NCBI GenBank assembly: GCA_022763185.1
Contig: JALEGL010000014.1
Span: 248,001-312,000, forward strand
Direction: 5' to 3'
Length of the DNA: 64,000 nucleotides
From: a bacterium
Lineage (GTDB): Bacteria > Bdellovibrionota_G > JALEGL01
The position numbers and the translations under genes are program-made. This document shows, in pieces, positions 42,873 to 64,000 of the stretch. Every line of letters begins with the position of its first letter. The stretch's first letter is position 1. The notes under the pieces are model-generated. The model worked only from the letters and a program-made list of their open reading frames with translations, ran no database searches and was not told the origin of the DNA.

Positions 42873-44771
42873 ATGCAAAAAAATCAAATTAAAGAGTTTT
42901 CATTATTTTCAGTTTTTTTAGGTATCATTTTATCTATTGTGATGGGAGCGGCCAACGTTTACCTTGGTTTAAAGGTGGGGATGACGGTTAGCGCATCGAT
43001 TCCAGCAGCAGTTATTGCTTTAGGAATATTGCGAGGCATATTTAGAAGAAAGTCAATTTTAGAAGCCAATTTGGTTCAGACATCTGCTTCGGCTGGAGAG
43101 TCTTTGGCTGCGGGTGTTATTTTTACAATGCCAGCCTTAATACTGATTGGTATATGGACAGAGTTTGATTTTTGGACCACAACTTTAGTCAGTATGACCG
43201 GAGGTTTATTAGGAATTTTATTCATGATTCCTATGCGTAAAGTTTTTGTGGTTGAGTCTAATGAATTAAAGTATCCCGAGGGTGTCGCTTGTGCTGAAAT
43301 ACTTACTGCTAGTGAAGACGATGATGAAGATAGCGCATCTAATTTAAAGATGCTTTTTGCTGCTGTTGGTATTGGTGGACTTTTTGAGTTTGGTAAAAAG
43401 TTTTTCCATATTATATCTTCCACAGTAGAAGGCGCGGCCATTTTTGGTAAAAAACTGTTTTGTTTTGGTTTTGATGTTTCACCTGCCTTGATCGGTGTTG
43501 GTTATATTGTGGGTTTATCGGTTGCAACGCAGGTTTTTTTGGGTGGCTGTATAGGTTGGTTGATAGCAATACCCGTCATTTCAAATGTTGACCCCTCACA
43601 GTTGGATGGTTCTGCAATAGATATGGCGTATGGTCTTTGGAGTACAAAAATACGATACATCGGTGTTGGAGCAATGATTGTTGGAGGTGTTGCATCAATT
43701 TTTAAAGTGCGGCACAGTATGGTAGATGCTGTTAAGGAACTTTTTGCCCAGATGTCGAATTTATCAAATTCAGAAAATGTTCCTGAAACAGAAAAAAATA
43801 TTCCTGGTAAAGCGATTATCGCATTAACTGTTGCAACCTTGCTTACTGTGGCAGGTACATATTATCAACTGCTGAACCATGATATTAAAATAACCCTGCT
43901 CACAACGATGATTATATTTGTTGCATCTTTCTTTTTTACTGCTGTGGCTAGTTATATTGTAGGCTTGGTAGGTAACTCCAACAGTCCTGTTTCCGGTATG
44001 ACAATAACTGCAGTATTGATGACAGGGCTTCTTCTATATGTTTTTGGTTTTACCGGAACTCAAGGTATTGTTGCGGTGTTAGTTGTAGCGGGTGTTGTTT
44101 GTTGTGTGTGTTGTACTGCTGGAGATGTTTGTAATGATCTGAAAACAGGACAACTGGTGGGAGCGAGCCCAAGAAAACAACAATGGATGCAGATTATCGG
44201 TGTTGTTGTTGCGTCTTTTGTGATGGCGCCAGTTTTAACAGCCATCCATGAAGGCTCTATTAATGCCGGTACTGGCGGAATTGGTGGAAAAGATTTACCT
44301 GCGCCTCAAGCGGGTCTTTTTGCTTCTTTAGCAGAAGGTTTTTTTGGTGATGTTGCATTACCATGGGACTATATCGCTGCAGGTGCCATCATAGCGGTCT
44401 TAATTTTGGTTGCTAATAAACTTTTTGAGGCCAGTAAAAGCTCTATTCAGTTGTACGTTATGCCTGTCGCTGTAGGAATTTACTTGCCTGTTGGTATCTC
44501 TGTTCCCATTATGTTGGGTGGAGTTATGCATTACTTGGTTTCTAAAGCAGGAAATAATAATAAACAAGGTCTTAAAAAGGGAACCTTGATATCATCAGGG
44601 TTGATTGCTGGGGAATCACTCATGGGGGTTATTTTAGCCATCTTCGCCTATAAGAATATAACAGGGCCAGCATGGGATGTTTCTCAAACGCTTACAGCAA
44701 TATTGGGGACTGTGGTGACATTTGGTGTAGCTTATTGGATTTATAAAGCATCTAAAACAGATAAAGCCTAA
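42873..44771 (+). CDS. OPT-family oligopeptide transporter
   Basis: This 632-residue membrane protein has about fifteen hydrophobic segments. OPT hallmarks are the N-terminal VYLGLKVGMTVSASIPAAVIALG and NLVQTSASAGESLAAGVIFT, the ELKYPEGVACAEIL loop and a second NSPVSGMTITAV region. CCTAGDVCNDLKTGQLVGASP is the conserved loop of the bacterial branch. Substrates in this family are small peptides or metal chelates. No ribosome site is seen; a TTGACG box lies 35 bases before the ATG, but its -10 is poor. A decayed toxin-antitoxin pair follows it. Confidence 0.9.
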   Translation: MQKNQIKEFSLFSVFLGIILSIVMGAANVYLGLKVGMTVSASIPAAVIALGILRGIFRRKSILEANLVQTSASAGESLAAGVIFTMPALILIGIWTEFDFWTTTLVSMTGGLLGILFMIPMRKVFVVESNELKYPEGVACAEILTASEDDDEDSASNLKMLFAAVGIGGLFEFGKKFFHIISSTVEGAAIFGKKLFCFGFDVSPALIGVGYIVGLSVATQVFLGGCIGWLIAIPVISNVDPSQLDGSAIDMAYGLWSTKIRYIGVGAMIVGGVASIFKVRHSMVDAVKELFAQMSNLSNSENVPETEKNIPGKAIIALTVATLLTVAGTYYQLLNHDIKITLLTTMIIFVASFFFTAVASYIVGLVGNSNSPVSGMTITAVLMTGLLLYVFGFTGTQGIVAVLVVAGVVCCVCCTAGDVCNDLKTGQLVGASPRKQQWMQIIGVVVASFVMAPVLTAIHEGSINAGTGGIGGKDLPAPQAGLFASLAEGFFGDVALPWDYIAAGAIIAVLILVANKLFEASKSSIQLYVMPVAVGIYLPVGISVPIMLGGVMHYLVSKAGNNNKQGLKKGTLISSGLIAGESLMGVILAIFAYKNITGPAWDVSQTLTAILGTVVTFGVAYWIYKASKTDKA

Positions 44772-52749: not shown

Positions 52750-54039
52750 ATGTTATATAATTTAGTATCTTTACTGGGTATAGCCGGTATTATTGGTCTA
52801 GCCTGGTTGATGTCAAACAATAAAAAAGCCTTTCCATGGCGCATCGTTTTATGGGGATTGGGCTTACAGTTTATAATTGCCATTTTTGTTTTTGTTCTTC
52901 CAATAGGAAAGAGCTTTTTCTTATGGGTCAATGATTTGGCTGTAACTCTAATTAGTTTTGCTACTGAAGGAGGCAAGTTTGTTTTTGGAGGATTAGCAAC
53001 CCGTAGCATGGAAGTAAAAGAGGGCGCTGCTCCAGGTTCAGACTTTGTCTTTGCTTTTGAAGTGTTAACCACGGTTATTTTTATCTCGTCTTTGATTGGG
53101 GTTTTGTATTATTTGAAAATCATGCAAGTGATAGTAAAAGCGTTTGCTTGGGTCATGCGAAAAACTTTAAAAGTTTCAGGGGCTGAGGCCCTGGTTGCAT
53201 CGGCCAATATATTCTTTGGACAATCAGAAGCTCCTATTACAGTAAGACCCTATATCGCAAAAATGACACAGTCAGAAATCATGTCTATGATGACAGGAGG
53301 CTTTGCTACAGTAGCTGGTGGAGTTATGGCAGCATACATTGGTATGTTACATGAAGTTTTTCCAAATATAGCGGGCCACATGATCTCTGCATCTTTACTG
53401 TCTGCTCCTTCTGCTTTGATGTTGGCTAAAGTTGTACTGCCTGAAACCGAAAAGCCACTCACTCAGGGAAATGTGGACATGAACGTAGAGACTGAGGATG
53501 TGAATGTTCTTGATGCTGCTGCAAGCGGTGCTGCATCTGGTCTTCATCTTGCGCTCAATATTGGTGCCATGTTAATAGCCTTTATCGCTTTGTTGGCAAT
53601 GATCAATGCCATGATTGGCTATGCTGGAGCATTGATAGGGGTAGAAAGCTTAAGTTTACAAAAGATTCTTGGCTGGACACATTACCCTATTGCCTTAATG
53701 ATGGGAGTATATCCTCAAGATGCCATGACTGTAGCTACATTGTTAGGTGAAAAACTGGTGCTTACAGAATTTGTAAGTTATCTACATTTAACTCAGATTT
53801 TAAAAGAAGGTGTTATACAACTTCATCCTAGATCAGTGGTTATTGCAACTTATGGCCTGTGTGGTTTTGCAAACTTTGCTTCTATTGCCATTCAAATCGG
53901 AGGTATTCGGGCAATAGCTCCATCACGATCTGGAGATTTAGCGCGTCTAGGTTTAAAGGCTATGTTTGCTGGAGCTCTTGCGGCTTACCTAACAGGCAGT
54001 ATTGCAGGTATTTTCTTTAACGGGAATGCAATTTTATAG
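52750..54039 (+). CDS. nupC: Concentrative nucleoside transporter (NupC/CNT family)
   Basis: This 429-residue carrier has the CNT pattern: an N-terminal three-helix block, the FPWRIVLWGLGLQFIIAIFV segment, ALVASANIFFGQSEAPITVRPYI, VAGGVMAAYIGML, and the C-terminal YGLCGFANFASIAIQIGG, which carries substrate and sodium contacts. It takes up nucleosides with Na+ or H+. Purine nucleoside phosphorylase, hypoxanthine phosphoribosyltransferase and a deaminase gene lie next to it, which argues for purine nucleosides. AGAGG lies about ten bases before the ATG. Confidence 0.92.
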   Translation: MLYNLVSLLGIAGIIGLAWLMSNNKKAFPWRIVLWGLGLQFIIAIFVFVLPIGKSFFLWVNDLAVTLISFATEGGKFVFGGLATRSMEVKEGAAPGSDFVFAFEVLTTVIFISSLIGVLYYLKIMQVIVKAFAWVMRKTLKVSGAEALVASANIFFGQSEAPITVRPYIAKMTQSEIMSMMTGGFATVAGGVMAAYIGMLHEVFPNIAGHMISASLLSAPSALMLAKVVLPETEKPLTQGNVDMNVETEDVNVLDAAASGAASGLHLALNIGAMLIAFIALLAMINAMIGYAGALIGVESLSLQKILGWTHYPIALMMGVYPQDAMTVATLLGEKLVLTEFVSYLHLTQILKEGVIQLHPRSVVIATYGLCGFANFASIAIQIGGIRAIAPSRSGDLARLGLKAMFAGALAAYLTGSIAGIFFNGNAIL

Positions 54040-54225: not shown

Positions 54226-55053
54226 CTAATCATTTTTTTCTGCTAACTTGTTGTCAATATCTTCACGAGTAAAAGAAAAGATTTGTTCACTTAATTTGAT
54301 CAAATCTTTATCTTCGGTTGCGAGTTGTTCAAACTTTAAGTTTTGAGCACCAGCAATCCATTGCCATACAAAGGGATTGTATTTAAACTTTTCACCAATC
54401 GCCATGGCTCCAGCATTGGATGTTTTTTGAGGAGAGTCTTTCCCCAAAAACTCATTTTGTACCAAATCACCATCAATCGCTGAAGAAATAGACCTTTCAG
54501 CTTTGGCATTGATGATCATCACCATGCACATAGGACAAGGCTCTAAGGTTCCGTAGACATAATAGCCATTTTTATTGAATTTTTGAGTTTCTTCATTTGT
54601 ACTTACAGAATATTGTGTCAAAGGATCAACTATAGCTGATCTTGATAAGTTGTGATCATCCATTTTAACACCATATTTATTTTTTCCTTCATTGATGATG
54701 TGATTTCTGTAAGCCACGGCGTCTTCTAAAGCTCTGGCTTCAGCATGATCTGTCACACCAGCGCCGGTCACCATAGCATTTCTACCTGGAAATTCATAAA
54801 TGATACCGTCATGAACCAACAAAACTAAGGCGCCAATCCCATAGTTATTTTCATTAAAAGCTTTTAAAGCAGAAGCTAATGCTTTTCTTGCATAATAGGC
54901 ATGTTGCCCAACTTGATAAGTGTTTTTTGTTCTTTCTAAATAGTTTTTAACCTGAGTAGCTATGTGTACATCGTTAGTATTGGTTTGAGCAATGCTAGAT
55001 TGATGACTAAAAATTAGAAAACAAACACCGAATAAAAAAAATAGTTTTTTCAT
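54226..55053 (-). CDS. Secreted cytidine/nucleoside deaminase-like protein
   Basis: This protein of 275 residues has a cleavable signal peptide (KKLFFLFGVCFLIFSHQSSIAQ), so it acts outside the cytoplasm. The zinc-binding motifs of the cytidine-deaminase fold are present: HAEARALED (His and catalytic Glu) and EPCPMCMVM (two Cys). Most relatives (tRNA adenosine or guanine deaminases) are cytoplasmic, so secretion is unusual. The ATG at 55053 is used because GGGGA lies upstream; the frame also starts at TTG 55065. It is divergent from the purine phosphorylase gene. Substrate is not decided; adenosine, guanosine or cytidine derivatives are possible. Confidence 0.8.
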   Translation of the reverse strand: MKKLFFLFGVCFLIFSHQSSIAQTNTNDVHIATQVKNYLERTKNTYQVGQHAYYARKALASALKAFNENNYGIGALVLLVHDGIIYEFPGRNAMVTGAGVTDHAEARALEDAVAYRNHIINEGKNKYGVKMDDHNLSRSAIVDPLTQYSVSTNEETQKFNKNGYYVYGTLEPCPMCMVMIINAKAERSISSAIDGDLVQNEFLGKDSPQKTSNAGAMAIGEKFKYNPFVWQWIAGAQNLKFEQLATEDKDLIKLSEQIFSFTREDIDNKLAEKND

Positions 55054-55107
55054 GGTAATCCCCAATAGAATTATATTTTAGTAAAATACGATATAGCAGT
55101 TTACATA

Positions 55108-55136
55108 TTGTGATTCAAATGAAAAATAATTAAAAA
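55108..55136 (+). promoter_or_regulatory. Candidate promoter of the purine phosphorylase gene
   Basis: TTGTGA (55108-55113) and TAAAAA (55131-55136) are 17 bases apart. The ATG at 55145 is 8 bases past the -10 element, so this would be another leaderless transcript and would support the longest start. Confidence 0.4.
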
Positions 55137-55144
55137 TACGCACT

Positions 55145-56047
55145 ATGTTGTTTTTTAAAGGCTTACAATATATGTCAGCCATCATGATTGATATAGATGT
55201 ATTAAGAAAAAAAATAAAGAGTGCGGTTGATTATTTATCAAATGCTAATGTAGCGAATATAAAAGCAAAATATCTTATTGTCTTAGGTTCTGGACTCAGT
55301 GAAGCGATTGATGATTGGGAAATGATTCACGCATTTGCGTATAAACAAATTCCCGGATTCCCTAAGCACATTATAGAAGGGCATAAAGGCGAAGTTAGAC
55401 TTTATAAAATCAATAATACAGAGGGTGACTATGCATGGGTATTAACGGGAAGATTTCATAGTTACCAAGGTTATGACCCTGCGGAGTGCGCTATTCCAAT
55501 TCGAGTGGCTGCTTGTTTGGGTGTTAGTCATGTAATTTTGACCTGCGCTGCTGGTGGAATCAATCAGGCCTATAATCCTGGAGATATCATGTTTTTAAAT
55601 GATCATATCAATAGCACAGGGATGAGCCCTTTTAGAGGAGCTAATTTAGAGGAGTATGGGCCTCAATTTTTAGATTTAACGCAAGTTTATGATGACGAAT
55701 TATTGCAACACTTTAAACATGCTGCAAAACAAGCCGATATCAATACCCATGAAGGGGTTTATGTCTGGCATTGGGGACCAGAATACGAAACCCCAGCAGA
55801 GATAAAACGCTGGTCTATTCTCGGTGGAGATGCTATTGGTATGTCCATGGTGCCAGAAGCCATGGTTGCGCGGCACCATCAGTTGAAAGTTGCAGGTATT
55901 GCTTGCATTAGCAATAAAGCGGCAGGCATGTCAGATCAAGGCAGAAAAGGCAAGTTGGACCATAAAGAAGTCTTAGAAGTGGGCCAACACAGTAGCCAAA
56001 AGCTAAAACAGATATTAAATAACTATTTTAATAATGAGAGAAAGTAA
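55145..56047 (+). CDS. Purine nucleoside phosphorylase
   Basis: This 300-residue enzyme of the trimeric PNP family splits purine nucleosides to base and ribose-1-phosphate. Motifs are YLIVLGSGLSEAIDDWE, PGFPKHIIEGHKGEVRL, GRFHSYQGYDPAECAIPIR with the conserved His, LTCAAGGINQAYNPGDIMFLNDH, and GPEYETPAEIKRWSILGGDAIGMS. Other in-frame ATGs (55172, 55184) exist; promoter geometry favours the first. It overlaps the next ORF's possible start. In context it passes free purine base to the phosphoribosyltransferase downstream. Confidence 0.9.
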   Translation: MLFFKGLQYMSAIMIDIDVLRKKIKSAVDYLSNANVANIKAKYLIVLGSGLSEAIDDWEMIHAFAYKQIPGFPKHIIEGHKGEVRLYKINNTEGDYAWVLTGRFHSYQGYDPAECAIPIRVAACLGVSHVILTCAAGGINQAYNPGDIMFLNDHINSTGMSPFRGANLEEYGPQFLDLTQVYDDELLQHFKHAAKQADINTHEGVYVWHWGPEYETPAEIKRWSILGGDAIGMSMVPEAMVARHHQLKVAGIACISNKAAGMSDQGRKGKLDHKEVLEVGQHSSQKLKQILNNYFNNERK

Positions 56048-56048
56048 G

Positions 56049-56597
56049 ATGTTGGATTTTCCCAAAGACTATTGTTTACCTCCCCTTATCAAACAGGAAC
56101 AGTTGAAAGCCAAAATTCATGAATTGGGTCAGCAAATAAGCCAAGACTATCAGGGCAAAGAGATCTTATGCATTGGTGTTCTCAATGGAGCAGTTCAATT
56201 TTTGGTACATTTAATTGAGGAAATAAAACTTCCTCTTAATATAGATTTTATTTCTGTATCAAGTTACGGTAATTCAACTCAATCTAGTGGTCAAATATCT
56301 TGGCGTTTAAAATTATTACAAGACATCAGCAATAAGCATGTAATCATCGTTGAAGACATTGTTGATACAGGCATTACCTTAAGTGAAGTTAAAAAAGAGT
56401 TTTTAAAACACAAGCCAAAATCATTAAAGATTGCATCCCTTTTTTCTAAACCTTCAAGGCGTGAAGTTAAAGTTGATATAGATTACTTAGGGTTTGAAAT
56501 AGAAAACCACTATGTTGTAGGCTTTGGTTTTGATTATCAAGGTTACTATAGAAACTTACCACATGTAGCCATTCTGCCTGAAGACCGATACAAATAA
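56049..56597 (+). CDS. hpt: Hypoxanthine phosphoribosyltransferase
   Basis: This 182-residue enzyme from the ATG at 56049 turns hypoxanthine or guanine into the nucleotide using PRPP. The PRPP-binding motif VIIVEDIVDTGITLSEV is near residue 96, and FISVSSYGNSTQSSG is the flexible loop region. The C-terminal VVGFGFDYQGYYRNLPHVAIL is the standard HPRT end. An in-frame ATG at 56034 overlaps the phosphorylase stop codon. It completes the salvage chain nucleoside, base, nucleotide with the neighbouring genes, and is followed by a strong terminator. Confidence 0.92.
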   Translation: MLDFPKDYCLPPLIKQEQLKAKIHELGQQISQDYQGKEILCIGVLNGAVQFLVHLIEEIKLPLNIDFISVSSYGNSTQSSGQISWRLKLLQDISNKHVIIVEDIVDTGITLSEVKKEFLKHKPKSLKIASLFSKPSRREVKVDIDYLGFEIENHYVVGFGFDYQGYYRNLPHVAILPEDRYK

Positions 56598-57439: not shown

Positions 57440-58069
57440 TTATTTTTTACTCAGCCTAGAGCTTACAAGCCCACTAAAAACGGGAATGAGCGAGATAAAA
57501 ATAATCAATAAAACAGCTTTCTCAAAGTTTTCCTGAATAATGGGTATATTCCCTAAAAAATAGCCTGCAAGTGTCATTGAGCTGATCCAGGCAATACCAC
57601 CAACAATATTGAAACTGACAAATTTTTTATAATCCATGTTGGCCATACCTGCTACAAAGGGAGCAAAAGTTCTTACAATAGGAACAAATCGTGCCAAAAT
57701 AATGGTTTTACCGCCATGCTTCTTGTAAAAAGCTTGGGTTTTTTCAAGGTGTGATTTTTTAAAGAACATAGAATTGTCTTTAAATTGAATACGATTTCCA
57801 GATGTCTTACCTAAAAAATATCCCACTGTATCTCCAACAATAGCTGCAATAATGAGCAAGATATTGAGCCATACAATATTAAGTACGCCTGTGCTTGCTG
57901 CAAAACCAGTAACAAATAAAAGTGAGTCACCAGGAAAGAAAAATCCAATCAATAAACCCGTTTCTGCAAAGATAATAGCAAATAGAATAGGGTAGGATAT
58001 CCATCCCCAGGTTTCCATAAAAACGGGTAGTTGTTGCAAATCAAAAAGTGTTTTTATCTGTTCAATCAT
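57440..58069 (-). CDS. DedA-family membrane protein
   Basis: This 209-residue membrane protein has the DedA/SNARE-associated domain: FAETGLLIGFFFPGDSLLFVTGF near residue 35, GDTVGYFLGKTSG, and RFVPIVRTFAPFVAGMANMDYKKF, with the conserved arginines in FARFVP-like and G-x3-R positions. Bacterial DedA proteins recycle undecaprenyl phosphate across the inner membrane and affect proton homeostasis. It is the last gene of the right-end operon and overlaps the NhaC gene by 4 bases. Confidence 0.88.
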   Translation of the reverse strand: MIEQIKTLFDLQQLPVFMETWGWISYPILFAIIFAETGLLIGFFFPGDSLLFVTGFAASTGVLNIVWLNILLIIAAIVGDTVGYFLGKTSGNRIQFKDNSMFFKKSHLEKTQAFYKKHGGKTIILARFVPIVRTFAPFVAGMANMDYKKFVSFNIVGGIAWISSMTLAGYFLGNIPIIQENFEKAVLLIIFISLIPVFSGLVSSRLSKK

Positions 58070-59646
58070 ACCGGATCACTTGTGTTGGGTTTTCCAAAAA
58101 TATTCACAGTGATTACTAATATTACAGCACCGAGCAATAAGCTAATAAAAGGTGAAAAACCTAAAATTAATGCAGACTCTCCCACCAATAAGCCAACAAA
58201 GGCAACCAGTAAGGCATAGGGAAGCTGGGTTTGGACATGGGTCATTAAATTACATTCTGAGGACGATGAAGACATTACGGTAGTGTCTGATATTGGAGAA
58301 CAGTGATCCCCAAAAATAGATCCTGCTAATACAGAACCAACACTGGCCGTAACCAGCATTTGAATATCTGCGGCACTGATACCCGCTTCAGTAGCTATAG
58401 AGTATGCCAATGGAGCTGAAATAGGCATAATGATGGCCATGGTTCCATAACTTGTTCCTGTAGCAAAGGAGACAATTGCAGCTGTCATAAATGTCATGGC
58501 TGGTATAAAGTAAGGAGATATTTTGCCTTGCAGGAGTTGCAAAATATATTCTGCACTTTTTAAGTCCTTGGTCACCTGTGCCAATGCCCAGGCCAGCACC
58601 AAAATAACACAAGCAGGCAACATGGATTCAAATCCATTCATGATGGCTTGCATGGATCTTTCTGTATTCAATGTTTTACCAGCAAGGCTAAAGAGAATAG
58701 TAAATACCAAACTTAAACTTGCTCCCCAGATTAAACTTTTGTAGGCATTTGCATTTCCTAGCGCTTCTTGAATAAACGCAATACCACTGAGGCCATGGTT
58801 TTGGTCAAGTGATTGATATCCAGTAATGAATAAGCTGATCAGACATGAAAAAATTAAAAACAACAGGGGTACAATGGCAAATACACTGGATGTAGCTTTG
58901 TTTAAAGCATCTTCTGAGCCTGTATTAATTTGTGTTCTTGAGTCAATAGGAGAATCGCTGAGTTTGGTGTATTTGGCCATAGCCCATAAATCTTTGCCTT
59001 TGTAAATGGTATAAAATACAAAAAAAATCATGAGCAGTGGGTAGAACCTGTAGGGTAAAGAGTTGATAAACATTTGATAAGCGCTGATGGGGGATTCAAA
59101 GTTCATATCTTTGAGGGCATCACCAATAAGGCCCACTTCTGTGCTGACCCAGGTCGACACTAAAGCAATGCTTGCAATGGGAGCGCTGGTAGCATCAACA
59201 ATAAAAGCTAACTTTTCTCGGGATATCTTATATTTGTCATATAAGGGGCGCATGGTTTTGCCTAAAATTAAACTGTTGGCATAATCATCAAAGAAAATGC
59301 ACAAGCCCAAAAACCAAGTGCTCAACTGGATGCTTTTTGAACCTTTAGCTTTTGAGCTAATCCAATTGACCATGGCTTTGGTTCCCCCATTGTATTGAAT
59401 GAGACTGCTAATAGCTCCAATAAAGAGTAAACTGATCAATATAGCGGCATGGTCACCATCGCCTAAAGCATTGAGTAAATATGTGTCAAAGCTTTTAAAA
59501 AAAGCAGAAAAGATACTTCCATCGTGCAATAAAAAAACACCTAACCAAATTCCGGCCAACAAAGACACATACACTTGTTTGGTAAGAAAGCCTAAAACAA
59601 TGGCCAAAATGGGGGGCAATAAACTGTTAAAGCTTGGATTATCCAT
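58066..59646 (-). CDS. NhaC-family Na+/H+ antiporter
   Basis: This 526-residue membrane protein has about a dozen hydrophobic segments and the NhaC pattern: STWFLGLCIFFDDYANSLILGKTMRPLYDKYKIS, FIVDATSAPIASIALVSTWVSTEVGLIG, and FATGTSYGTMAIIMPISAPLA with IFGDHCSPISDTTVMSS. Members exchange Na+ for H+, or malate for lactate, or basic amino acids. In this operon it might move an amino-acid product instead of only ions; that is inference. It overlaps both neighbours (8 bases with the racemase gene, 4 with dedA). Confidence 0.88.
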   Translation of the reverse strand: MDNPSFNSLLPPILAIVLGFLTKQVYVSLLAGIWLGVFLLHDGSIFSAFFKSFDTYLLNALGDGDHAAILISLLFIGAISSLIQYNGGTKAMVNWISSKAKGSKSIQLSTWFLGLCIFFDDYANSLILGKTMRPLYDKYKISREKLAFIVDATSAPIASIALVSTWVSTEVGLIGDALKDMNFESPISAYQMFINSLPYRFYPLLMIFFVFYTIYKGKDLWAMAKYTKLSDSPIDSRTQINTGSEDALNKATSSVFAIVPLLFLIFSCLISLFITGYQSLDQNHGLSGIAFIQEALGNANAYKSLIWGASLSLVFTILFSLAGKTLNTERSMQAIMNGFESMLPACVILVLAWALAQVTKDLKSAEYILQLLQGKISPYFIPAMTFMTAAIVSFATGTSYGTMAIIMPISAPLAYSIATEAGISAADIQMLVTASVGSVLAGSIFGDHCSPISDTTVMSSSSSECNLMTHVQTQLPYALLVAFVGLLVGESALILGFSPFISLLLGAVILVITVNIFGKPNTSDPV

Positions 59647-60820
59647 AACTTATCTCCTTAATGGTTTTATGGTGATTTGTCATATTTTTACAATGCTTAT
59701 CATTGATAAAACTTTTCTCAATAGGACCATGACCCAAGCGAGTCATGATGTTATACGAAACCGTATTTTCCCAAGTAGCTAGATCGTCAAAGCTAATTAT
59801 TTCATTTCCTTGCTGCCCAACCAAGATCACCTCGTCATCTAATTGGAGGTTTGGAATATGAGTTACATCAATCATGCTGGCATCCATGCTGTTACCGCCA
59901 ACAATTCCCGCTTTTTGACCATGAACCAAAACATGACCTACATTGCGTATTCTGGGGTAGCCTTGGCCATAGCCTAAAGGAATGGCCGCAATGGTTTTCT
60001 TTTCTTTCACTTTGTAATGCATGCCGTAACCAATACAATCACCGGGAAGAAATTTTTTTATTGAGCATATTTTAGATTTTAAAGAGAGAATGGGGTGCAG
60101 TTCATTAATCTGTCGACAGCTTTTTGATGGATGTAAACCATAAAGTAAGACTCCCAACCTTACCATATTAAAGTGGGCATCAGGTAAATCTAGGTATCCA
60201 CCTGAATTACAGGCATGAATGGTTGGCTTATGTTGAGCTATAAAAGAGGGTATCTTACTGAGACAATGCTTAAAACGATTTAGTTGTTCATAAGCATACA
60301 TTTTACTATTTGCATCAGATTGAGCAAAGTGTGTCATTAAACCAGATACAGAAATATTTAGAAGTGCAAGCACTTGATTAAAAAAATCTATAAATTGATC
60401 GTACTGAATACCAAAACGTCCAAGCCCAGTATCAATATTGATATGACATTTAGCAACCTTACCAAGTTTGATCGATAGTTGATTAGCATATTGTGCTTGC
60501 CATAATGAAGAAAGAATAAATATATAACCTTTATCAATGCAATGACTGATGCTTTCTTTGGTAGGCTCACCCAAGATGATTATGGGAATATTTTGAACGT
60601 AAGGTTGAATGTTAAAGGCTTCTTCTACACGCGCAACTGCAAACATATTTGGCTTTAAGTACAATGTTAAAAAATTAACCATATGACATGCATCATGACC
60701 ATAGGCATTATCTTTGACCACACAGCAAAGTTTTAAGTTTTTAGGTATATCTTTTTTTAAAATTTTAATATTGTTTTTAAGAATAGAAAAATCTATTTCT
60801 ATTTTATTAGGTGAGATCAT
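59639..60820 (-). CDS. alr: Alanine racemase-family enzyme (type III PLP fold)
   Basis: This 393-residue PLP enzyme has Lys36 in CCVVKDNAYGHDACH as the PLP lysine, where most alanine racemases read VKADAYGHG. The C-terminal catalytic tyrosine is in CIGYGMHYKVKEKKT, and IPLGYGQGYPR, GGNSMDASMIDVT and a final RLGHGPIEKS follow. The overall length is right for Alr or a broad-specificity amino-acid racemase. D-alanine for peptidoglycan is the default role. Its place between a PurD-like ligase and a transporter, and the varied motif, leave another amino acid possible. Confidence 0.87.
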   Translation of the reverse strand: MISPNKIEIDFSILKNNIKILKKDIPKNLKLCCVVKDNAYGHDACHMVNFLTLYLKPNMFAVARVEEAFNIQPYVQNIPIIILGEPTKESISHCIDKGYIFILSSLWQAQYANQLSIKLGKVAKCHINIDTGLGRFGIQYDQFIDFFNQVLALLNISVSGLMTHFAQSDANSKMYAYEQLNRFKHCLSKIPSFIAQHKPTIHACNSGGYLDLPDAHFNMVRLGVLLYGLHPSKSCRQINELHPILSLKSKICSIKKFLPGDCIGYGMHYKVKEKKTIAAIPLGYGQGYPRIRNVGHVLVHGQKAGIVGGNSMDASMIDVTHIPNLQLDDEVILVGQQGNEIISFDDLATWENTVSYNIMTRLGHGPIEKSFINDKHCKNMTNHHKTIKEISYG

Positions 60821-60828
60821 AGTCTATC

Positions 60829-62031
60829 TCATAAAGGCCAAAGGGTTTTACCAATATCAGTTCTATAAAAGCTTCCATAAGACTGAATATCTTGTGCACA
60901 AGTATAGAGCTTTTCTATACATAAGTTAAAATGATCATGAGATGAGATGATGTTTACAATGCCATGACCTTTTTGAGCATAATAAGTACGATTTTTTTCT
61001 ATAATATTGTCCCAAAAATACACGCCATCTGTATAGATTTTCATTTCAATAGGATAGTATTGAGGTGAATTTTTATAAGGGTACTGGTGAGAAACAATAT
61101 GAAGTAGACTAGAGTATTTTTTGTTAGGCTTTATTTCTATATCAAATGCTTTACCAAGGTAGATGTTTTTAAATGTATTGAAAAAATTATTCATGCTTAA
61201 CATGATCATGGGACCAGAGCTTACACCTAGACGAGCGTTGTATTCTAAAACATGCCAAGTATGATTCTTTTTTATTGCTGTAACTTGCAAAGGACCACAA
61301 TAAGCTACTTTTTTAAACCAAGGTATTAAGGGTTGAATAAGGTGTTCCACCAATCCATAATGATCCTTTTGGTCAATTTCAACAATACCTCCCATGGGAG
61401 TGGATAAAGTTTCACCTAAATTGCCTGTATACAGCTTTTTATACTCTTGGTTGGTGCAAAAAGGATAGACCTTACCGTTAGTGATAAAAACAGTATGACC
61501 TGCTTCATCTTCGCCTGCATATTTTTGCAAAAAAATACCATCACTACAGTCTGTTTGCTTAATGATGGCAAGAGTTTGTTCATAGCTAGTACAAACGGTT
61601 GTTTTTATTTTACTGTTTGGAGAAGAATATCTATTTTTAATAACATACGCTGCAGGATTATTTTGAATAAAGCTTACTGCTTCGCTTTGCCTATCAAAAG
61701 TATAAGATTCAATAAAAGGTATTTTGTATTCATTACAAAGGGTCTTAGCAAAAAATCTGTCCTTTTCAATAGCCAGAGCTTGTTTGTTAACGGCTAAAAC
61801 TTTTATTTTTTGTTGTTTTATAAAAGCTTCATCAACGAATTGGCGCCAATTAATTGATGTTGGATACACATAATTTATTTGATGTTTAAGCATATAGTTA
61901 TTCAAAGCCTGCTTTGAAAAAGAACTGTTGGTTTCTAAGTGAAATATGTTTAAGCTCTCATTGCATGGTTCACTTTTTTTAAGCGCATCAAATAAAATTT
62001 TATTACCTAAAATCAGTAAGTTCTGTTTCAT
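60829..62031 (-). CDS. PurD-like ATP-grasp ligase, divergent
   Basis: This 400-residue protein follows phosphoribosylamine-glycine ligase in layout: an N-terminal domain (MKQNLLILGNKILFDAL, lacking the usual GREHAL), a pre-grasp region with AIEKDRFFAKTLCNEYKIPF, an ATP-grasp core with AAYVIKNRYSSPNSK and IFLQKYAGEDEAGHTVFI, metal-site residues in HVLEYNARLGVSSGP, and a YRTDIGKTLWPL end. It is much diverged and probably not the purine enzyme. It likely forms an amide between an amino acid and an unknown amine. It is 34 bases after the kinase gene and 8 bases before the racemase gene. Confidence 0.75.
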   Translation of the reverse strand: MKQNLLILGNKILFDALKKSEPCNESLNIFHLETNSSFSKQALNNYMLKHQINYVYPTSINWRQFVDEAFIKQQKIKVLAVNKQALAIEKDRFFAKTLCNEYKIPFIESYTFDRQSEAVSFIQNNPAAYVIKNRYSSPNSKIKTTVCTSYEQTLAIIKQTDCSDGIFLQKYAGEDEAGHTVFITNGKVYPFCTNQEYKKLYTGNLGETLSTPMGGIVEIDQKDHYGLVEHLIQPLIPWFKKVAYCGPLQVTAIKKNHTWHVLEYNARLGVSSGPMIMLSMNNFFNTFKNIYLGKAFDIEIKPNKKYSSLLHIVSHQYPYKNSPQYYPIEMKIYTDGVYFWDNIIEKNRTYYAQKGHGIVNIISSHDHFNLCIEKLYTCAQDIQSYGSFYRTDIGKTLWPL

Positions 62032-62065
62032 GATTTTATTCCTATAAAGTAAATGGTGTTTATAG

Positions 62066-63058
62066 CTATTGACAAAGATGAAGGTATAAAGAACTTATAT
62101 ATTCATGCAGTTGAGATTTTGCTATGTTGTGGGTTTCTACAGAATGGTTTCCAAGCATGAATTTTAGTTGAGAAAAGTCTTTATTGTTTTCTATCAAAGC
62201 AAAGATATTTTTAACTTCAGTGTTTGGATTGCATAAGATTATAATTTTATAAAGGCTGTTGTCTTGTTGTTGATACAGTATGCCCATAATAGCTTGTTGA
62301 TAACTTTGCGTGCTATGAATTTCTGTCGCTTGGTCATTAAGAGCAGAAGAAGTCAGCATAAGTTTTATGTCATGTTTTTTAGCGTAGTTGATGGCTTTTT
62401 CATGAATTATTGTGCTTGTATTTTCGGAAAATAAACTTAACTGCGTATAGTCTAAATTGGAGATCGTTTTTGCTTTCTTAACAATCATAGGGTTGCATAT
62501 ATGCAATGCTCCAGGATTTTTTAAAAATATGCATTGTTGAGCGTTGTAAAGCTTTGTTAAGTGCAGTGCTGTTACATCAGAGCAGTCAAAATTCATAGCC
62601 TGATAATTATTTTGTTTTGATTGACCTATGAAACCGGGGACAATAGGAATAATATTTTGTTTAATACAGTTAGATATATCTTCTTGATTGATTTTTTCTA
62701 TTTCCCATTCCCGAGCATTGTCTTTACTCAATAGCTGAGTAGGTGTTTTTTCAAAAATTAAAGCTTTGCTGTTGAGTTGATGCTGGTTGAAATATGTTTC
62801 AATCAGATTGCATGAAAAAAATTCAGCATGACAAAATAAAGTGTTGTAGCTGTCCAAATTTACAGCTGCAATGTTCTCTATGATTTTTTTGATTTTTCTA
62901 CTGTGACCCGATAAAGCTGAGACAACTAAAATAATTTTTTTATTTTGCTTTTGTAAGTGATGTAAAAAAGCAATAATTTTTGGGAGTGAGCGTTTTAAGT
63001 CTTTGCTTTTACCTAAGCTAGATTCGCCTAACTTAACAACAAAAAGGTTTTGATGCAT
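62066..63058 (-). CDS. Aspartokinase-like amino-acid kinase, atypical
   Basis: This 330-residue protein reads like aspartate kinase, but key motifs are changed. KLGESSLGKS stands where KFGGTSV is usual, VVSALSGHSRKIKKI is normal, and FDCSDVTALHLTKLY replaces the GRGGSDTTA motif. IFLKNPGALHICNPMIVKKAKTI matches the TDVxGIxxxDPR region without the aspartates, and the HEKAINYAKKHDIKLMLT stretch is kept. Only a short C-terminal domain, perhaps one degenerate ACT, follows. It is the first gene of a five-gene operon. It could phosphorylate a carboxylate other than aspartate, or be a binding protein. Confidence 0.75.
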   Translation of the reverse strand: MHQNLFVVKLGESSLGKSKDLKRSLPKIIAFLHHLQKQNKKIILVVSALSGHSRKIKKIIENIAAVNLDSYNTLFCHAEFFSCNLIETYFNQHQLNSKALIFEKTPTQLLSKDNAREWEIEKINQEDISNCIKQNIIPIVPGFIGQSKQNNYQAMNFDCSDVTALHLTKLYNAQQCIFLKNPGALHICNPMIVKKAKTISNLDYTQLSLFSENTSTIIHEKAINYAKKHDIKLMLTSSALNDQATEIHSTQSYQQAIMGILYQQQDNSLYKIIILCNPNTEVKNIFALIENNKDFSQLKFMLGNHSVETHNIAKSQLHEYISSLYLHLCQ

Positions 63059-63148
63059 TTATATGTCCTTAGATTTACAAGTAATGATAAAAGTCTATTG
63101 GGACTGAGCGATCTGCTTAATTATTTAACTATCAAATAAAAATAGAGT

Positions 63149-63154
63149 GTCAAT
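63149..63154 (-). promoter_or_regulatory. -35 element before the right-end operon
   Basis: The minus strand reads TTGACA here, about 95 bases before the kinase-like start codon. A clear -10 is not seen at the right spacing; TTAAAT lies 19 bases on. It is the best promoter candidate for the operon. Confidence 0.35.
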
Positions 63155-63267
63155 ATTTTTGTCTTGCATAAAATTAAAAAAACATGGATTGTTGCATGAA
63201 GCAGATTGCTTTGTGCTGAGCACCAATTTAAATTTCAAATGCACACCTTTAAGGAGCTCACAGCACA

Positions 63268-64000
63268 ATGAAACAGGCAGCTTTAAGTTCTCCATATTTT
63301 AATACATGGACCTATTTAAAAATACTCAATAATTCAGGATGCATCAATCAACATGAAGACTGGTTGCTGTATGGGCTTGTAGTTAAGAACAATCAATACA
63401 CTATAATAAAATTGAGAAACCCAGTTAAAAACCAGGTTAAGTTGGAGCAGTATGAGGCTGTATTACCTTTTTTTATAAGGTATTATTCTAATGACGATTT
63501 TTCTCACGATAATTTTTGTATAAAGTATGTTCAAGAACATATAAAAACAAGCTACTATCCAAAAGTTCAAGTTTGTTTACCCTATGTGCCGATAGCCGAG
63601 GATAAGTTTATTCAACGCAATAAAACCTTAAGTGTTAATAAAGTATATGAATCTTTATTGCTTTGGGCAGAGCAAAAAAAATACAGTTCAGTGCATGTCA
63701 CATTACCTTCAAAAAAGGATTATGAAACTTTAAAAAGTTTAGGGTTCTTTAGTTCAAAAAAACAACTGTGTTACTGGTATAATAAAAATTATCAAGCCTT
63801 TGAAGGTTTTTTAGCGGCATTAAAGTCTAAGTATCGTTGTCAGATTAAAAAAGAACGCAGTCATATTCATCAAAAAGGCTATCAAAAACAAACTCTGACT
63901 GGGGACACTATTAAAAAATTGCACATTGATTGTTTTTGGCACTTGTTTAAATTGACCCATCACAGAAAACAATGGATCATGTCAAAATTAAACAAAAACT
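63268..64000 (+). CDS. FemAB/GNAT-like peptidyl or aminoacyl transferase, partial
   Basis: From an ATG at 63268 a frame stays open to the window end (244 residues seen). AAGGAG lies 11 bases before it. The visible part matches the FemAB-like acetyltransferase family often labelled peptidoglycan biosynthesis (PF04339 type): YSSVHVTLPSKKDYETLKSLGF, CYWYNKNYQAFEGFLAALKS, QIKKERSHIHQKGY, and a WHLFKLTHHRKQW stretch. It is divergent from the kinase/ligase operon and may use its product. The 3' end lies outside the window. Confidence 0.7.
   Translation, partial: MKQAALSSPYFNTWTYLKILNNSGCINQHEDWLLYGLVVKNNQYTIIKLRNPVKNQVKLEQYEAVLPFFIRYYSNDDFSHDNFCIKYVQEHIKTSYYPKVQVCLPYVPIAEDKFIQRNKTLSVNKVYESLLLWAEQKKYSSVHVTLPSKKDYETLKSLGFFSSKKQLCYWYNKNYQAFEGFLAALKSKYRCQIKKERSHIHQKGYQKQTLTGDTIKKLHIDCFWHLFKLTHHRKQWIMSKLNKN

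Follow-up and report, generated by a model that had tools for sequence, protein, structure and literature searches.

A PurD-like ATP-grasp ligase and an alanine racemase-family protein encoded side by side in several bacterial phyla: a candidate D-amino-acid ligation module

Described ligase–racemase systems and the operon in the window

An Alr-fold racemase is partnered with an ATP-grasp ligase in the VanT and VanC/G systems, which consist of a serine racemase and a D-Ala-D-Ser ligase, while ATE1, aminoacyl-PG synthase (A-PGS)/MprF and FemX all use aminoacyl-tRNA. In Lactococcus, aslA and racD encode an ATP-grasp D-Asp ligase and a racemase in one operon, and D-Asp is placed onto peptidoglycan precursors (PMC4155827). 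Fem-type enzymes add L-amino acids from tRNA, and Fem and ATE proteins are related aminoacyl-tRNA-dependent ligases (PMC2922099). Here we describe a bacterial operon, and a gene module that it shares with distant bacteria, in which other protein families may, by analogy, perform the same three jobs as AslA, RacD and Fem.

The operon lies at positions 57440–64000 of a 64,000-nucleotide stretch of DNA (the window) from a genome of 2.25 Mb that is 97% complete, one of five genomes of its phylum in the compared set. An earlier note on this DNA had described a tight minus-strand operon of five genes, and we found these five open reading frames as claimed, with gaps of 34 and 8 bases followed by overlaps of 8 and 4. 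They encode an aspartokinase-like protein of 330 aa (62066–63058; AA_kinase, 90.3 bits), a PurD-like ATP-grasp ligase of 400 aa (60829–62031; GARS_A, about 38–39 bits; GARS_C, 22 bits, below its cut-off), an Alr-family protein of 393 aa (59639–60820; Ala_racemase, 173 and 114 bits), an NhaC-family carrier of 526 aa (58066–59646; Na_H_antiporter, 174 bits) and a DedA-family membrane protein of 209 aa (57440–58069; VTT_dom, 70.9 bits; PRK10847, 213.6 against a cut-off of 236). The divergent FemAB-like gene of the same description is also present, on the plus strand and 209 bases upstream of the operon; it encodes a GNAT-fold FemAB_like (PF04339) protein of 365 aa and runs from 63268 to about 64365, beyond the window end, matching PF04339 at 119.5 bits over the part inside the window and at 218.7 bits over the whole gene. 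The 209-bp intergenic stretch between this gene and the kinase gene (63059–63267) is a candidate shared promoter region, where promoter-like consensus matches were no more frequent than in shuffles.

The ligase–racemase pair and its transferase-type partners

The PurD-like protein scores 91.8 bits against the purD equivalog model, well short of the cut-off of 288. A true PurD is encoded elsewhere in the genome (C6:311007–312008; GARS_A, 223 bits), which rules out the window protein as the genome's purine enzyme, and a Ddl (C3:37871; 163.7 bits) likewise rules it out as a missing Ddl. In a tree with 37 true PurD proteins, the window protein falls with 21 relatives in a separate clade of what we term module ligases, on the other side of a branch with 100/100 support. 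The acceptor and nucleotide signatures of PurD (GGRE, GLAAGKG, NTGGMG and GDPE) are replaced throughout this clade, which has invariant residues of its own (NQEYK, W62, H179, P212, W238 and W259), and a changed acceptor is the natural inference. Module ligases resemble PurD in fold and domain order, in their retained ATP-grasp catalytic residues K132, E176, E263, N265 and R267, including the ATP-grasp Lys, the Glu/Asn metal ligands and the Arg that follows them, and in a C-terminal YR.D.G motif, but they differ in the loss of those signatures and in sitting with a racemase rather than with purine genes. The best fold matches of an AF2 model of the window protein (pLDDT 85.7) are GAR synthetases, with a TM of about 0.8 (2yw2), and by fold and catalytic residues the protein is predicted to be an ATP-grasp carboxylate–amine ligase. 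It lacks the N-terminal motifs GVGAF and TRDYAHYGP that are common to its relatives, so its function may have changed or it may be decaying.

The window racemase passes the alanine-racemase equivalog cut-off of 168 with 288 bits and retains all catalytic residues (the PLP lysine K36, R135, R221, Y265 and M312). Score, PLP Lys, catalytic Tyr and Arg residues all place it in the alanine racemase family, with alanine as a candidate substrate. Against the VanT-G model it scores 254.6 bits, below the cut-off of 460, and the module also differs from VanT with VanC/G in having no membrane domain, a ligase of another family and no VanX/Y. In a tree, 18 module racemases form their own clade (100/99), apart from 30 other Alr proteins and with D37 and G207–G208 as clade-specific residues, so that their specificity may differ. 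The genome holds two further Alr copies, which rules out the window racemase as its sole Alr; the one on C6 clusters in the tree with proteins of order relatives and is likely the housekeeping copy. The third copy (G000:C3:154000–161000, L061) has among its neighbours a second Ala_racemase_N-type PLP protein of 356 aa, a GNAT protein, an M20-type amidohydrolase and a sodium:solute symporter, their roles judged by eye, and this cluster is perhaps another D-amino-acid route in the genome.

Among 385 genomes searched, the PurD-like protein has one strong relative (36% identity, 260 bits), encoded between a FemX-like gene and an Alr gene; the next-best match, at 74 bits, is an ordinary PurD encoded among purine genes, and the phylum's other four genomes compared gave no module-grade match. 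A single-protein scan of genome contigs found no match, and a two-row alignment of the window ligase with the distant ortholog retrieved 21 loci in GTDB species genomes, from Verrucomicrobiota, Calditrichota, KSB1, KSB3 and Alteromonadaceae, a count that is a lower bound biased to the more conserved members, since the loci were retrieved by exact peptide patterns. The loci are mostly on MAG contigs, and some of their titles may be wrong (e.g. Akkermansia muciniphila, L085).

An Alr-clade gene lies downstream of the ligase gene and on the same strand in 17 of these loci, directly beside it in 15 and no more than 2.1 kb away in two; the other four show no racemase nearby, one of them being cut by a contig end. 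Pairwise distances among the ligases and among the racemases are strongly correlated (r = 0.92, 0 of 5000 permutations; r = 0.86 without the window). The two window proteins have diverged further than all others in the set, with mean distances of 0.68 and 0.63 compared to 0.47 among the others, and as long branches their position inside the module clades is unsure. Of the dedicated pathway proposed in the earlier note, the gene order from PurD-like ligase to Alr is conserved across phyla, while the remainder is not: the kinase, NhaC and DedA genes are local additions outside the conserved set, and a search of the neighbourhoods of the other module loci gave no match to NhaC or DedA. The heart of the finding is a conserved ligase–racemase module and not a five-gene pathway. 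No copy of it was found in IMG/VR viral contigs, and a literature search limited to open-licence papers returned no published description of the gene set, so that the PurD-like/Alr pair is apparently previously undescribed.

In 11 of the 21 loci (KSB1, Calditrichota and Verrucomicrobiota), Alr is followed by an ATE-like (arginyl-tRNA-transferase-like, GNAT-fold) gene that mostly overlaps or abuts it. All eight ATE-like members tested match ATE_C weakly (one at 22.6 bits against a cut-off of 25; best E 1.6e-5), arginyltransferase models give 45 bits, and a partial fold model of low confidence (pLDDT 59, better in the core at 60–195) is nearest to ATE1, A-PGS/MprF and FemX. In both KSB3 loci, a FemX-like gene lies just before the ligase gene, and the FemX-like proteins match the UDP-MurNAc-pentapeptide alanyltransferase model at 43.8 bits. 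The third module gene is therefore kin to these transferases, while differing from them in that its scores lie below or near the family cut-offs and in that the family itself changes between lineages. Ligase, racemase and an ATE/Fem-type transferase are all present in 13 of the 21 loci, which agrees with the earlier idea of a ligase and racemase acting with a FemAB-like protein, as the pair usually comes with a gene of the tRNA-dependent aminoacyl-transferase type. The arrangement resembles the peptidoglycan cross-bridge system of AslA/Aslfm with RacD in combining an ATP-grasp ligase with an amino-acid racemase, alongside aminoacyl-tRNA-dependent transferases (PMC4155827), but the ligase and racemase families are different ones: the module ligase belongs to the PurD branch, the racemase has the PLP Alr fold and is not of the aspartate-racemase kind, and the hosts are mostly Gram-negative.

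The FemAB_like gene of the window is present in single copy in its genome, absent from the phylum's other four genomes and encoded on the strand opposite to the module; although not orthologous to the ATE-like or FemX-like genes, and linked to the module only by its position and by co-occurrence at the phylum level, it may take the transferase role. In the four Alteromonadaceae loci, no such transferase is encoded near the ligase and racemase genes, and the pair stands alone, adjoining a homocysteine-synthase-like gene and a coiled-coil gene. In three Verrucomicrobiota loci (L085, L086 and L088), the gene that comes after the triad belongs to one and the same cluster; in L085 it was identified as DUF3570 and precedes ApbE and thioredoxin-like genes.

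The aspartokinase-like protein and its genome context

The aspartokinase-like protein reaches 93 bits against the best aspartate-kinase equivalog model, whose cut-off is 535; this protein and the PurD-like one, both far under their equivalog cut-offs, are the two enzymes of the three to which the earlier description as strongly altered applies. The protein shares the AA-kinase fold with LysC over residues 5–236 and aligns with it in the catalytic domain only, differing in its length and in lacking the full ACT region; three relatives within the phylum have LysC-length kinases of 399–413 aa. Some catalytic residues are retained, namely the equivalents of LysC K8, S39, A40, E119, S201 and D202, whereas those of E. 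coli LysC G11, G197, R198, D222, Y227 and K257 are E, N, F, N, H and T, and the KFGGT motif reads KLGES. Three of the replaced positions, R198, D222 and K257 (F157, N181 and T216 in the window kinase), are each invariant in the 14 sequences compared. In LysC, Arg198 binds the alpha-carboxylate of aspartate and a Glu binds its amino group (PMC5481828); the window kinase retains the Glu and has Phe in place of the Arg. Judged by these residues, it is probably not an aspartokinase, and the loss of residues that bind aspartate and ATP makes the carboxylate-activating step assigned to it in the earlier note doubtful.

This kinase is the sole LysC-like gene of the genome, the only other AA-kinase-family match being a pyrH-like gene on C6. 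It nevertheless cannot be an ordinary LysC: family searches, on which the gene absences in this genome rest, gave no match to the Asd domain (PF01118) or to DAP epimerase (DapF), and the absence of Asd blocks every aspartate-derived route. With neither enzyme present in a genome of this completeness, the kinase cannot feed lysine or DAP synthesis, and an ordinary role there is ruled out. The proposal of recruitment to a new pathway fits the genome in so far as it has a PurD besides the PurD-like protein, three Alr proteins including the window racemase, and no aspartate pathway downstream of the kinase.

No kinase ortholog was found among the 385 genomes, where the best match (70 bits) is to ordinary LysC-length proteins, nor in plasmids, nor at the other module loci, one of which (L076) has a LysC-like gene of 405 aa on the opposite strand. 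Rhizobium 'uridylate kinases' were rejected as orthologs, being LysC-like and lying beside asd or nif genes, not beside the module; plasmid p4 of Rhizobium ruizarguesonis (L072, 8955–11089), for instance, carries asd and an aspartokinase-like gene annotated 'uridylate kinase' beside nif genes. The window protein could be a pseudo-kinase or a kinase of another substrate, both being possible, and we favour a pseudo-kinase: a local addition that, from its active-site residues, is probably inactive. In this genome, the strongly diverged module shares an operon with a probably non-catalytic aspartokinase relative, NhaC and DedA.

Two penicillin-binding-protein-like (PBP-like) genes lie just beyond the window (L059, 8037–10340 and 16738–18108), and since Asd and DapF are absent, the cell must either import the third residue of the stem peptide or use another in its place. 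Inside the window, at 42873–44771, lies a gene for an OPT oligopeptide transporter.

Proposed function and alternative readings

From protein families, catalytic residues and gene order, we consider it reasonably probable that the racemase and the ATP-grasp ligase make an amide or peptide that contains a D-amino acid, usually in company with a tRNA-dependent aminoacyl transferase. In the reaction and order of steps that we infer, the Alr-clade PLP racemase would supply a D-amino acid (D-Ala or another small one), and the PurD-derived ligase would activate a carboxylate as an acyl phosphate and join it to an amine, the D-amino acid being donor or acceptor in this step. A GNAT-fold enzyme of the ATE or FemX type would then, in most lineages, add another amino acid, an L one, from aminoacyl-tRNA, giving a short D-amino-acid-containing amide or peptide that may be free or mounted on an envelope precursor. 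As the pair has been kept together in very different bacteria, usually beside a tRNA-dependent enzyme, it probably makes a mirror-image amino-acid compound or a surface decoration. More tentatively, with nearly even chances, we suggest a pathway spanning several phyla, in which the PurD-derived ligase and its dedicated racemase make a D-amino-acid amide that the tRNA-dependent transferase extends or attaches; that the PurD paralogue in it moved from purine synthesis to peptide chemistry is put forward with the same reserve. If true, two genes likely to be annotated automatically as PurD and alanine racemase would instead form a system dedicated to D-amino-acid ligation, with a tRNA-dependent partner, which would point to a new D-amino-acid product in members of the Verrucomicrobiota, the Calditrichota and the marine Alteromonadaceae. 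Since Opacimonas viscosa LMIT007, a named strain, is among the carriers, experiments on this question may be feasible.

The product could also be a secreted small molecule, namely a soluble dipeptide or amide that contains a D-amino acid, serves as a signal, antimetabolite or osmolyte, and leaves the cell or is recycled through varying carriers and hydrolases, which we regard as possible though on the unlikely side. The varying neighbours of the module, among them MFS carriers, a proline-iminopeptidase-like hydrolase, members of the penicillin-amidase family and a TonB receptor, together with NhaC and DedA in the window, are consistent with such a product, as is the fact that small systems of ATP-grasp enzymes and transferases for soluble metabolites are a known kind (PMC2922099); in addition, a PurD paralogue on a Pantoea plasmid is clustered with a second ATP-grasp gene, a dioxygenase and an MFS carrier. 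However, conservation does not extend to any one carrier, genes for TonB receptors and the like are common in general, and no precursor-supply or resistance gene is common to the loci. The Pantoea cluster (Pantoea agglomerans plasmid NZ_CP143422.1, 1–9719; L074) reads ThiF – TauD dioxygenase – GNAT – CapA – ATP-grasp – PurD – MFS – amidase and looks like a small natural-product cluster.

An envelope variant, in which a peptidoglycan (or lipid) precursor receives a D-amino acid from the module and an L-amino acid from the GNAT-fold partner, appears unlikely. It would involve the same three enzyme types as the AslA/RacD/Fem systems (PMC4155827; PMC2922099), the partners include the FemX-like proteins that match the alanyltransferase model, and the PBP-like genes and ordinary Ddl of the window's genome imply that a precursor exists for decoration. 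Against this, the ligase is derived from PurD rather than from the branch of Ddl and AslA, the partner met most often is ATE-like, with known relatives that act on protein N-termini, the mostly Gram-negative hosts are ones in which side-chain bridges are unusual, and neither Mur nor PBP genes were noticed next to the module loci.

We judge it improbable that the window operon is what is left of an anciently acquired module, decaying as the kinase and the ligase lose their function: the divergence of the window proteins, the missing N-terminal motifs of the ligase, the broken active site of the kinase and a GC content of 0.31–0.32 in the ligase, kinase and FemAB_like genes (window mean, 0.355) point that way, but all five reading frames are intact and tightly spaced, and every catalytic residue of the ATP-grasp enzyme and the racemase is retained. 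The full pathway of the earlier note, with the aspartokinase-like protein activating a carboxylate for the ligase and racemase, is highly doubtful, since the kinase gene, although first in the operon, 34 bases from the ligase gene, with the K8, E119 and D202 equivalents kept and no Asd to consume aspartyl phosphate, has lost the R198, K257 and D222 equivalents and reads E at G11, has no ortholog beside the module in any other genome, and would serve ligases of a class that makes its own acyl phosphate.

Elsewhere in the window, a deaminase-like protein with an apparent signal peptide (54226–56597) adjoins purine nucleoside phosphorylase and HPRT genes, and a concentrative-nucleoside-transporter-like open reading frame lies close by at 52750–54039, forming a purine salvage group in a genome that also carries PurD and a PurH-like gene.
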